From Chloroflexota bacterium (GTDB lineage Bacteria > Chloroflexota > Anaerolineae > Anaerolineales > Villigracilaceae): 61,283 nt of DNA. Of the stretch, positions 52,196 to 56,146 are shown piece after piece. The stretch covers positions 1-61,283 of the forward strand of contig JAIOAU010000017.1 of the NCBI GenBank assembly GCA_019873655.1, in the 5' to 3' direction. Position numbers and translations under genes: made by a program. The notes beneath the pieces were generated by a model, which did no database searches, was not told the origin of the DNA, and saw only the letters and a program-made list of their open reading frames with translations. How positions within the stretch are numbered: the stretch's first letter is position 1; each line of letters starts with the position of its first letter.

Positions 52196-52260
52196 GATAT
52201 TGATTGTCTGATTCGTTGTCTCTTTTTCATGGGACAATTTTACTTGAAAGATATCTCTCG

Positions 52261-53034
52261 ATGAGTGAATTTCAGAAACTCGCCTCTGGCCTACTGCAGG
52301 AAACGACCCTGGGATTTGACCTGGATGAATCTCAAGCATCTCGGGCGCGCGTCCTGATCGTGGATGATGACGCCGATTACCTCGAAATGATGAAAATTAT
52401 CTTGCGCAAGGCCGGCTTCGATGTGGCGACCGCCTCCGATCACCGCCTGGCGCTGGAGAAGTGCGCGGGTCTCTCTCCCGATCTGATCCTCTTGGATTTG
52501 ATGATGCCGGAGATCGATGGGTGGGAACTTTACGAGATGTTGCGAGGGGTGACGCAGGCCCCGATCGTCATGATCACGGCCAGCGCCAACCGAGACAACG
52601 CCGTCCGCGGTTTGGAAATCGGCATGGCGGAGTACATTTCCAAGCCGTTTTACACTCCCGAAATGATCGCCCGTCTCAAGCGGGTGTTGCAATCGGTGCG
52701 AAAGGAAGAAGCGGCCAGTATCCAGGTGTTTCCCGAAATCGAATTGTGCATCAATTATCTGAGCCGCGAGGTGATGATGCGGGGGGAGATCGTACGCCTG
52801 TCGCGGCGCGAATTCGAACTGCTTGCCCTCCTGGCCCGCCGCGCCCCGCATCATGTCCTGTACGAAGACCTGACGACTCATCTGTGGGGGGAGGATAGCC
52901 GCAAGAACCGCGTTCATCTCAAGACGGTGGTGTTCTCTCTGCGCCAGAAGTTGGAAGAGCAGCCTTCTGCGCCCAACATTCTGGTCAACTATCGCAACGT
53001 GGGCTATCAACTGCTCGACGGCAAGAACGGGTAA
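52261..53034 (+). CDS. OmpR/PhoB-family response regulator
   Basis: This 257-residue regulator has an N-terminal extension of about 30 residues, a receiver domain (LIVDDDADYLE; phosphoacceptor Asp in LLDLMMPEIDGWE; Lys in ISKPFYTP) and a winged-helix output domain (LSRREFELLALLARRAPHHVL, in parts; RVHLKTVVFSLRQKL; GYQLLDG). No kinase gene is adjacent, so its partner is encoded elsewhere. I chose ATG 52261; the frame extends 19 codons further upstream, into the AT-rich leader. A terminator follows. Confidence 0.93.
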   Translation: MSEFQKLASGLLQETTLGFDLDESQASRARVLIVDDDADYLEMMKIILRKAGFDVATASDHRLALEKCAGLSPDLILLDLMMPEIDGWELYEMLRGVTQAPIVMITASANRDNAVRGLEIGMAEYISKPFYTPEMIARLKRVLQSVRKEEAASIQVFPEIELCINYLSREVMMRGEIVRLSRREFELLALLARRAPHHVLYEDLTTHLWGEDSRKNRVHLKTVVFSLRQKLEEQPSAPNILVNYRNVGYQLLDGKNG

Positions 53035-53148: not shown

Positions 53149-54591
53149 ATGAAACATTCGAATTTTCTCAAAGCAGCGGGGAGTTTGTCGTACACCCTGG
53201 CCGCTGCTTTTCTCGTCGCCGCGCTGGTCATTGGCCTGCTGCCGGTCGAGCTGGTCGCGGCCAGCAAGGGCGGCAACTCGGGGGCCATCTGGACGACCAA
53301 CGGCGATTGCGGCGATGCCAGCCAGGATGTCAATCACTTTGCGATTGGCGAGGTGGTTTACATCAACGGCAGCAACTTCGATCCCAACACATCGTATAGT
53401 TGGCAAATCAAAGGGCAGCCCGGCGGCGCCAGCGCCGACCCGAATATCGTCGTGGCTTCGGGCACTGTGACGACCGACAGCAACGGCAATTTCTGTTTTG
53501 CTGCTTATACGGTCGCCGCGGACGATGACGGCGAGTACTCGGTCAAGGTCGGCAACAAGGGCGACAATTACCGCGTCCGCGGGACGACCCCTCCACCTCC
53601 GCCTCCGCCGGTCGATGTCTGCCCGAACATTCAGGGCAATCAAACCACGGTTCCTGCCGGCATGGAAGTGGACGGCCAGGGCAACTGCGTGCCGATCATT
53701 GACCTGTGCCCGAACATTGCTGGGAATCAGGCCGCCATCCCTGTGGGCATGGAAATGGACAACGAGGGCAACTGTGTGCCGATCGTTGACCTGTGTCCCA
53801 ACATCGACGGGAATCAGAGTTACCTTCCGGATGGCATGGAGGTGGACGACGAGGGCAACTGCGTGCCGGTTTCCTCAGACGATCCCTTTGGCCTGGATTT
53901 CTACTGCCTGGGCTTCACCGTGACCAACCAGAATGATTTTGCCGCCTCCTTCGACTGGGAAGTGGCGGGCGGCCCCTCTGGCTCCGAGACGCTCGGGGTG
54001 GGTGAATCGATCGACATCGATGTCGATCCCGCCTTTGCCGACGCTTTGGTGACGATTTCCTTTGGCGACGGAGAAGGTTTATGGTCTTTGTCGGGCAGCC
54101 TGCCCGAGGACTGCCCCCTGCCCTTCGAAGAGTTGACGATCGAGGGCTTCTGCCTGGGCCCGAACGCCGAATCCTTCGGCTGGCGAATCATCAACCCCAA
54201 CGGCTACGACGTGGATGTGGAGTGGCGGGTCAACGGCAGCGCGCTGGCTGGCCTGGCGACGGTCGATGCCAACAGCAACCACGAGTTCTCGACGCCTAAA
54301 GCAGAAGGCTCCATCATCATGCTCTACATCGGCGGCGTCTTCCAGGGCGATGCGACCGGCGCGCAAAATTGTCCCGTCGACAGGGAGATTCCTCCGCCTC
54401 CGCCCGGCGGCGATCCCGGTGAGACCCCCATCATCCCGTTGGGCAGCGGCGGGCCGATCCTGATCCCCGTCACCGGCGCGGCCGATGACCTGGTCGATCT
54501 GACCCCGCGCCTCTTCATGAACCTCGGCTTCGGTTTCTTCGGCCTCGGCCTGGTTCTGCACGGCCTGGGACGCCGCAAGAGCGTCCTCTAA
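53149..54591 (+). CDS. Secreted repeat protein with C-terminal sorting signal (IPVTG)
   Basis: This 480-residue protein has a signal peptide (LAAAFLVAALVIGLLPVELVAA), a beta-sandwich-like region, a run of seven Pro, and three tandem repeats of the form CPNI-x-GNQ-x5-GME-x-D-x2-GNCVP (residues ~160-245). Two more beta-rich domains follow. The C-terminus reads IPVTG (439-443), a hydrophobic stretch (LFMNLGFGFFGLGLVLHGLG) and RRK, the layout of a sortase sorting signal. The next gene is a sortase, so it is probably its substrate and displayed on the surface. The ATG has AAGGAG upstream. Confidence 0.85.
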   Translation: MKHSNFLKAAGSLSYTLAAAFLVAALVIGLLPVELVAASKGGNSGAIWTTNGDCGDASQDVNHFAIGEVVYINGSNFDPNTSYSWQIKGQPGGASADPNIVVASGTVTTDSNGNFCFAAYTVAADDDGEYSVKVGNKGDNYRVRGTTPPPPPPPVDVCPNIQGNQTTVPAGMEVDGQGNCVPIIDLCPNIAGNQAAIPVGMEMDNEGNCVPIVDLCPNIDGNQSYLPDGMEVDDEGNCVPVSSDDPFGLDFYCLGFTVTNQNDFAASFDWEVAGGPSGSETLGVGESIDIDVDPAFADALVTISFGDGEGLWSLSGSLPEDCPLPFEELTIEGFCLGPNAESFGWRIINPNGYDVDVEWRVNGSALAGLATVDANSNHEFSTPKAEGSIIMLYIGGVFQGDATGAQNCPVDREIPPPPPGGDPGETPIIPLGSGGPILIPVTGAADDLVDLTPRLFMNLGFGFFGLGLVLHGLGRRKSVL

Positions 54592-54669
54592 GACGAGCAT
54601 TCCTGAAGGAGCCAGGCGCGCCGACTTCGCCGGACGCGCCTGGCTTTCTTTGCAAGGAGAGGCGACGCC

Positions 54670-55437
54670 ATGTTCAAGAATCTCAATTGGATGGTGATTC
54701 TGGGGGCGCTGGCGATTTTGGCCGGCGGCCTGAACCTGTGGTCGGATTACCGGCGGGCGGCCGTTTCGCCTTTCGACAGGGTGGATGCGCAGGAAGAGGA
54801 GGCTTTCCTTCCCCTGCTGGTCCCGGTCGAGGAATCGCCGGAGAGCGCCGGCCCCAGCGGTTACGCCCCCACGCTGGATCACGACCGTTTGACCCCCGGC
54901 CGCTTGCCGGTCGAGGAATTCGACGCCCGGCCGCCGCTGACCGGTCTGGCGCCGGAGCGGATTCTCATCCCCTCCATTTCGCTGGATGCTCCTATCGTGC
55001 CGGTGCATTACCGCGACATCGAATTCAACGGGCAAATCTATCATCAGTGGCGGGTGCCAAACGAATTTGCCGCCGGCTGGCAGGATACCTCGGCGCTCTT
55101 GGGCGCGCCGGGCAACACGGTGCTGAACGGCCATCACAACGCCTACGGGCGGGTGTTCGAGAACCTGGCTGCCCTCCGGCAGGGAGATGTCATCCAGGTG
55201 CAGGCGGGCGAATGGGAGTACCGTTACGCGGTGGCGACCAAACTGCTCTTGCCCGAGCGCGGACAGCCGCTGGAAGTGCGCATGGAGAACGCCCGCTGGC
55301 TGGCGACCTCCGCCGACGAGCGCCTGACGCTGGTCACCTGCTGGCCTGCCGAGAGCAACTCCCACCGGCTGATTATCATCGCCTACCCCATTGGCAGGCC
55401 GCTTCGATTGGCCTCCCAAACCGCGGAGACGCCATAA
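54670..55437 (+). CDS. Sortase
   Basis: This 255-residue protein has one N-terminal membrane anchor (WMVILGALAILAGGLNLW), a linker and a sortase domain (ILIPSISLDAPIVPV; NTVLNGHHNAYG with the catalytic His at 155; LTLVTCWPAESNSHRLIIIAYP with C224 and the Arg, in parts). It should cleave sorting signals and join proteins to the surface or to each other. It lies 78 bases after the IPVTG protein, its likely substrate. The sortase class is uncertain; D or E is plausible. Confidence 0.92.
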   Translation: MFKNLNWMVILGALAILAGGLNLWSDYRRAAVSPFDRVDAQEEEAFLPLLVPVEESPESAGPSGYAPTLDHDRLTPGRLPVEEFDARPPLTGLAPERILIPSISLDAPIVPVHYRDIEFNGQIYHQWRVPNEFAAGWQDTSALLGAPGNTVLNGHHNAYGRVFENLAALRQGDVIQVQAGEWEYRYAVATKLLLPERGQPLEVRMENARWLATSADERLTLVTCWPAESNSHRLIIIAYPIGRPLRLASQTAETP

Positions 55438-55443
55438 ACACAA

Positions 55444-55470
55444 ATCGGGCAGAAGATTTTTCTGCCCGAT
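55444..55470. terminator. Bidirectional terminator between two convergent sortase genes
   Basis: ATCGGGCAGAA (55444-55454) pairs perfectly with TTCTGCCCGAT (55460-55470). The loop is GATTT. Confidence 0.85.
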
Positions 55471-55492
55471 GGTTATTTGGGAAGAGAATCCG

Positions 55493-56146
55493 TCAGCGAG
55501 CGCCGGCCGGCTCGGGTACATAGGGCCAGGCCAGGACGAAGAGCCGTCCCCACGAATCGTTCCCCTCGGCGGCAATGCAGGTTTGCAAGACGAGTTGACC
55601 AGCGACGCCATAGGTCTGGTAGAACAGGTCGCTGTAGGTCAACGCGCCGCCCCGGTCCAAATCAATGAAGTTCGAATACGGGCTGTTGGGGTTGACGGCC
55701 TGGAAGCGGCGCAGGGCGGTCACCTGGTAGGAGCGGGTGTGGCCGTCGCCGTAAATGACCACGATGAGGTCGCCGACTCGAATGTCGAAGAAGTGAGCGC
55801 CGGCCAGGGTGTTGTGGGCCAGCAAGCCCAGCGAGCCGAAGTCGGAAGCGGCCCCGAACTGGGTCACGGTTTCGGGGGCGGTGGAGACGTAGGCGGGTTG
55901 TCCGCTTGGCTGCTGAATCACGGGCAGGGCCAGCACGTCTTCCACGTAGAGTCCGGTCACTTGCTGCGGCTGACCGTTGGCGACCTGACGGATGAAGGCG
56001 GCCAGGTCGGGGAGAGGGGCCGTCTGGAGGTCGGCGACGGGGGCGGTCGCCGCGCCGGTCACGGGCAGAAAGGTCGCTGCCGGGCGCGCCCCGCTCAGAA
56101 ACAAGGCCAAGACCAGGAGGAGAAGCAGCAAGCGGTTTCTGTTCAT
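55493..56146 (-). CDS. Sortase-domain protein with its own LPVTG motif
   Basis: This 217-residue protein has a signal peptide (LLLLLLVLALFLSGA) and a sortase-like domain: LGLLAHNTLAGAHFFDI with the catalytic His, YQVTALRRFQAV, and LVLQTCIAAEGNDSWGRLFV with the Cys and Arg. Just after the signal peptide, residues 27-31 read LPVTG, the classical sortase recognition motif. It lacks a membrane anchor other than the signal. It is convergent with the other sortase. It may be exported and itself be a sortase substrate; that is inference. Confidence 0.85.
   Translation of the reverse strand: MNRNRLLLLLLVLALFLSGARPAATFLPVTGAATAPVADLQTAPLPDLAAFIRQVANGQPQQVTGLYVEDVLALPVIQQPSGQPAYVSTAPETVTQFGAASDFGSLGLLAHNTLAGAHFFDIRVGDLIVVIYGDGHTRSYQVTALRRFQAVNPNSPYSNFIDLDRGGALTYSDLFYQTYGVAGQLVLQTCIAAEGNDSWGRLFVLAWPYVPEPAGAR

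Follow-up and report, generated by a model that had tools for sequence, protein, structure and literature searches.

A sorting motif-like element at the N-terminus of a divergent sortase encoded beside an IPVTG surface protein in Chloroflexota

The sortase locus and its gene products

We analysed a 61,283-nucleotide stretch (hereafter the window; forward strand of contig JAIOAU010000017.1, assembly GCA_019873655.1) from a Chloroflexota bacterium of the Villigracilaceae, the genome of which comprises 3.04 Mb in 45 contigs. The window encodes two sortases at one locus: an OmpR-type response regulator, a protein ending in an IPVTG sorting signal and a membrane-anchored class-E-like sortase are codirectional, and a secreted sortase of the 'YLP' family is convergent to them, an arrangement whose best explanation is a predicted surface-display cassette of Anaerolineales-type Chloroflexota. 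The YLP sortase itself bears an LPVTG motif close to its N-terminus, and it is the recurrence and possible role of this motif that concern us here. The features of the locus are as follows.

52204 to 53034, + strand: OmpR-type response regulator (PF00072, 98.1 bits; PF00486, 56.4 bits)
53149 to 54591, + strand: secreted surface protein with a C-terminal sorting signal, the predicted sortase substrate (signal peptide and tail read directly)
54463 to 54477, + strand: codons of the substrate IPVTG (read from the sequence)
54670 to 55437, + strand: membrane-anchored class-E-like sortase (PF04203, 78.1 bits)
54805 to 54819, + strand: codons of FLPLL, residues 46-50 of the class-E-like sortase, in a disordered linker (recurrent motif)
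55493 to 56146, - strand: divergent YLP sortase, convergent to the operon (NF053836, 248.5 bits; sortase fold)
56054 to 56068, - strand: codons of the YLP sortase N-terminal LPVTG, residues 27-31 (recurs in relatives)
55814 to 55816, - strand: presumed catalytic His111 of the YLP sortase (invariant in a 31-sequence alignment)
55577 to 55579, - strand: presumed catalytic Cys190 of the YLP sortase (invariant in the same alignment)
55544 to 55546, - strand: presumed catalytic Arg201 of the YLP sortase (invariant in the same alignment)

The original prediction of an IPVTG-hydrophobic-RRK surface protein ahead of a membrane-anchored sortase agrees with the sequence in coordinates, strands and motif. 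The substrate gene starts with an ATG at 53149, preceded by a ribosome-binding-like aaggag, and stops at 54591; its product ends in ...ILIPVTG-AADDLVDLTPRLFMNLGFGFFGLGLVLHGLGRRKSVL and thus has the parts of a cell-wall sorting signal, namely IPVTG, the hydrophobic FMNLGFGFFGLGLVLHGLG and RRK, while a Pfam scan of this protein returned no family over its cut-off. The sortase that follows passes PF04203 (78.1 bits against a gathering threshold of 26.6), has HH, TC and HR residues that are invariant in all 15 aligned sequences, and has an N-terminal helix at residues 7-30 in its AlphaFold2 model. Its top fold matches among solved structures are to Thermobifida fusca sortase E, so that class E (Streptomyces SrtE1, Thermobifida SrtE) is the nearest class by fold. 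However, it falls below every NCBIfam class model, the nearest being class E (NF033747, 52.6 bits against a cut-off of 160), and the neighbouring motif is IPVTG rather than the LAXTG of class E; because of the sub-threshold score we term it class-E-like only. In the low-confidence, unconserved linker of the cassette sortases the pattern [ADG]FLP[VIL] was found by regular expression in 11 of the 15 aligned sequences, with a twelfth (locus L153) outside the scanned stretch; this may be a second lid-like element in the sense discussed below for class C sortases.

The convergent protein, predicted earlier to be sortase-like with LPVTG just after its signal peptide, is borne out in position and strand. 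It has 217 residues, its LPVTG (27-31) directly follows MNRNRLLLLLLVLALFLSGARPAATF, and it is a near-full-length member of NCBIfam NF053836, "sortase_YLP, putative sortase" (248.5 bits, cut-off 125, profile positions 3-193 of 195), an entry that names only a putative sortase. All eight relatives tested, motif-bearing and motif-less alike, also pass NF053836. The window protein scores 18.4 bits against PF04203, short of the gathering threshold of 26.6. H111, C190 and R201 are invariant in 31/31 aligned YLP sequences, and from their position and motif we take them to form the active site. The AlphaFold2 model (mean predicted local distance difference test, pLDDT, of 91) matches solved sortases in Foldseek at E 6.2e-8, with class C sortases among the top folds; a sequence search of solved structures with the protein gave no sortase matches and two unrelated weak ones, and a search with the YLP profile gave none. 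We found no description of an N-terminal motif or cassette for NF053836 or Chloroflexota sortases in the open-access listings searched.

Recurrence of the N-terminal motif among YLP sortases

YLP relatives were present in 22 of 61 searched genomes, the window's own included, and 11 out of 298 genomes from the class encode a protein above the NF053836 cut-off. The best 80 of 110 matches to one peptide pattern in named genomes gave 79 loci (designated by L numbers), all titled Chloroflexota and many of them Anaerolineales or Anaerolineaceae. Among viral contigs 24 stretches matched a pattern, none of them a relative. The comparison set comprises 84 rows, i.e. 83 proteins of the named loci plus that of the window, with one of three copies at L152 omitted.

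A narrow form of the motif, [ILV]P[VIL]TG, is present in the N-termini of 12 of the 84 YLP proteins against a mean of 0.066 and a maximum of 2 in shuffled sequences, which rejects a chance origin, and it is absent outside the N-terminal part in all 84. The wider strict pattern, [ILVMFAQT]P[VILTA]TG, finds 20 rows, the window included. Conservation of LPVTG, on which the original prediction was to be judged, therefore holds for about a quarter of the family and fails for the other 64 rows. In 22 motif-aligned relatives the information content is 2.9-4.3 bits in the five columns of the motif and does not exceed 1.9 in any flanking column, and I (17), V (19), T (21) and G (16) outweigh the allowed alternatives, bearing in mind that these relatives were chosen for having the motif and that this choice limits the letters possible within it. 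The motif sits in a linker that is otherwise unalignable between distant YLP relatives, and motif-less N-termini show, by eye, mostly an A-x-A signal-peptidase site or a lipobox-like Cys. We conclude that the N-terminal motif is real and recurrent, conserved against an unconserved background as judged from alignment.

Within the window's genome, [LIVM]P[LIVM]TG occurs in frame at 42 DNA matches, only two of which, those in the substrate and the YLP sortase, were judged sorting-like in their placement for this pattern (other residues at x unsearched). An IPVTG located 40 residues from a hydrophobic C-terminus at L051 was set aside as a sorting candidate on its surroundings, which we take to resemble those of a cell-division or rod-shape membrane protein, and a VPSTG tail-like match in a minus-strand frame of the window was also set aside.

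The YLP family varies in other respects. A lipobox-like Cys replaces the motif or A-x-A site in seven YLP sortases (L111, L113, L117, L123, L124, L130, L149), indicating that N-terminal anchoring differs within the family. Tandem paralogues occur as pairs at L134, L144 and L151 and as three copies at L152. In Thermanaerothrix daxensis (L164) RLYLPVILNLNSDEIPTTGG follows the YLP signal peptide and the convergent neighbour ends in LPPTGGVQVYLPLIMR, such that front and tail share both elements; we guess that the name 'YLP' may refer to a YLPL-type tail of the kind seen at the end of this neighbour. The window's genome also has open frames of 2490 and 2860 residues that end in a sortase-like domain (L086:1453-8922 and L087:2972-11551), and similarly ended frames of 2607, 1312 and 2246 residues are convergent to motif-less YLP genes at L102, L115 and L150, respectively.

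Association of the motif with the IPVTG cassette

Profiles of both sortases together with the tail pattern indicate that the arrangement of the window, an IPVTG or IPITG protein, a class-E-like sortase and a convergent YLP gene, recurs in the flanks of other YLP loci. Counting as a cassette either a class-E-like sortase or an IPVTG/IPITG tail within the fetched flank, at least one partner flanks 20 of the 84 rows; both are present in 17, the sortase only at L089 and L092, and the tail only at L107. Among rows with at least 2 kb past the YLP stop (eight short-flank rows dropped), a cassette is near 14 of 20 strict-motif YLP sortases compared to 5 of 56 others, and prior to this filter the counts were 14/20 and 6/63. 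Leaving the window aside, there are 19 cassette loci, 13 of which contain a close relative of the OmpR-type regulator, and regulator matches of 37-115 bits also occur at cassette-less L158, L165 and L166. In the 61-genome set, class-E-like sortases scoring above 250 bits are present in eight genomes including that of the window, all eight adjoin a YLP sortase, and six of these YLP sortases keep P-x-T-G. These data indicate that YLP sortases with the motif tend to adjoin an IPVTG cassette, a strong pattern in the sequences compared, though not one proven free of descent.

Several observations weigh against a functional reading of this pattern. The p value of the association between strict motif and cassette rises as relatives are collapsed, from 6.7e-5 at 90% identity to 0.005 at 70% and 0.047 at 60%. 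With curated loose labels the motif changes eight times and the cassette six times on the tree, and only two independent motif-cassette pairs fall on well supported branches of what is a quick tree with many open forks. The link is thus not proven because there are too few independent changes, and the tie between motif and IPVTG cassette stands on the counts (14/20 versus 5/56) but weakens on collapsing and does not reach phylogenetic proof. Three loci have a cassette and a motif-less YLP sortase (L107, L157, L161), and six strict-motif YLP sortases have no cassette in the fetched flank (L096, L104, L147, L160, L163, L164). Four of the latter genomes (L104, L160, L163, L164) encode a class-E-like sortase above 250 bits elsewhere; this distant sortase adjoins an IPVTG protein in L104, IPETG or IPQTG proteins in L160 and L163, and a regulator and a second, motif-less YLP gene in L164. 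At L025, L026, L032 and L033 the YLP protein has IPVTG and neither partner was found in the fetched stretch.

Possible role of the motif

All IPVTG/IPITG tails near YLP genes have T-G in the first motif (22/22; the tail pattern permitted G or A, and the L107 tail also has LPVTA nearer the membrane). The N-terminal copies by a cassette keep T-G in 14 of 17, the rest being IPVTA (L089), IPVTK (L092) and LPVTS (L109); the YLP protein at L009, also by a cassette, has only an IPVTI around residue 100, perhaps fortuitous. P-x-T is kept by substrates and N-terminal copies alike, and that some N-terminal copies lack the G which follows the scissile bond favours binding over cutting. Under a lax rule, 25 of 26 rows have possible signal-peptidase sites ahead of the motif (that of the window falls between SGA and RPAATFLPVTG), so the mature YLP enzyme may carry the motif close to its N-terminus. 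In the loop before Cys190, residue 181 is Gly in none of 17 rows with motif and cassette, in 50 of 55 with neither and in four of nine with the motif alone, these column statistics being descriptive and uncorrected for descent. Such a pattern would be expected if cassette-linked YLP sortases recognise a different peptide, and descent alone could give the same.

On balance we lean, tentatively and at somewhat less than even probability, towards the N-terminal motif being a pseudo-substrate arm that is bound rather than cleaved. After export the arm would stay on the YLP enzyme, its PVT core would occupy a sortase groove, either its own or that of the partner, and the enzyme would remain inactive or docked as long as no genuine IPVTG tail had taken the place of the arm. 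This action would parallel that of the class C sortase lid. Linker self-binding is already known in sortases: the DPY/DPF lid of class C pilin sortases coincides in position with a bound LPAT peptide, and class C activity goes up when the N-terminal region is deleted (PMC3493515); a tripeptide matching the linker of Streptomyces SrtE1 itself sits in its active site (PMC5148588); and the title of a solved Lactobacillus rhamnosus SrtA structure mentions a bound tripeptide derived from the protein itself. Class C sortases resemble the YLP sortase in having a Pro-containing N-terminal linker element mimicking LPXTG, but their lid is DPY/DPF whereas the YLP element is a complete sorting motif similar to the one in the substrate encoded alongside. 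The YLP sortase also differs in its short signal-peptide-like N-terminus, and docking is not seen in its model.

There are points against a pseudo-substrate arm. The strict pattern is absent from 64 of 84 rows. The AlphaFold2 pLDDT is only about 60-65 over YLP residues 21-40, which span the motif, and motif docking is therefore not supported by the model. The residue 181 difference is confounded by descent, with Gly in four of the nine motif rows that lack a cassette. Unlike DPF/DPY, moreover, a full IPVTG looks cleavable. The main rival reading, although clearly behind a pseudo-substrate arm, is that the motif is a true substrate of the class-E-like sortase, with a T/G cut freeing the YLP enzyme from its signal peptide and leaving an N-terminal Gly that may accept the IPVTG protein. 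It would account for the same motif being in both proteins of one cassette, for all eight class-E-like sortases above 250 bits adjoining a YLP gene with P-x-T-G kept in six, and for the presence of such a sortase elsewhere in the genome at four of the six strict-motif loci that have no cassette. It fits poorly with the loss of G in L089 (as in L007), L092 and L109 despite a sortase adjacent or near, and with L009, left with its possibly fortuitous IPVTI at about residue 100. The layout is also that of a sorting signal inverted, because the motif is N-terminal and the hydrophobic stretch precedes it rather than following; and processing at the upstream signal-peptidase candidates (25/26 rows, lax rule) would leave an acyl donor of a few residues. 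Since the motif lies N-terminal to the enzyme, a cut after T would set the enzyme domain free instead of fixing it in place, which argues against the original suggestion that the YLP sortase is joined to a partner by the first sortase. A front end working as an inverted sorting signal, in which the partner sortase cuts T/G and the Gly end accepts the IPVTG protein so that a sortase would be covalently mounted on its own cargo, we consider improbable.

Less probable than a true substrate is an odd signal-peptide c-region, with signal peptidase I cutting after PVTG or close by, and with the resemblance to a sorting motif due to accident or to inheritance without a sorting role. The same lax rule, with V/I/L at -3 and G/A/S at -1, does fit a cut at the motif (after PVTG or the like) in 23 of 26 rows, and motif-less relatives show P-V-x-A type sites there (HPVSA, LPVFA). 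Signal peptidase, however, needs neither T nor the leading I/L/V, and both are retained; T is followed by K, D and Q in L092, L106 and L105, respectively; and the motif is linked to the IPVTG cassette. A cut right after LPVTG, a doubt raised in the original prediction, is hence allowed by the rule but set against upstream candidate sites in 25 of 26 rows and against seven rows in which the motif lies 17-34 residues past an A-x-A type site (L103, L108, L133, L137, L139, L142, L164). As remote as covalent mounting on cargo, in our view, is self-processing, in which the motif would be a propeptide whose one-time removal by the YLP sortase itself renders the enzyme soluble and active. Its presumed catalytic triad is intact and six motif copies occur with no cassette in the flank, but no evidence points to IPVTG cutting by the YLP family, the scissile G is missing from some copies and 64 of 84 rows manage without a strict motif.

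Among the open-access abstract openings listed, we found no full sorting motif at a sortase N-terminus shared with a neighbouring substrate. What is new here, at the level of sequence, is a putative variant of sortase self-recognition built on a complete sorting motif that resembles the one in the substrate alongside. The findings suggest that the N-terminal tag helps to control or process the YLP enzyme itself. Substrate-mimicking lids are known to hold sortases back; here the part of the lid would be taken by a whole sorting motif resembling that of a substrate from the same locus, recurrent in a sortase family that is uncharacterised and comes from a phylum that has been little studied. Two questions follow, namely the function of YLP sortases and whether regulation or processing can be signalled by a sorting motif at an N-terminus.

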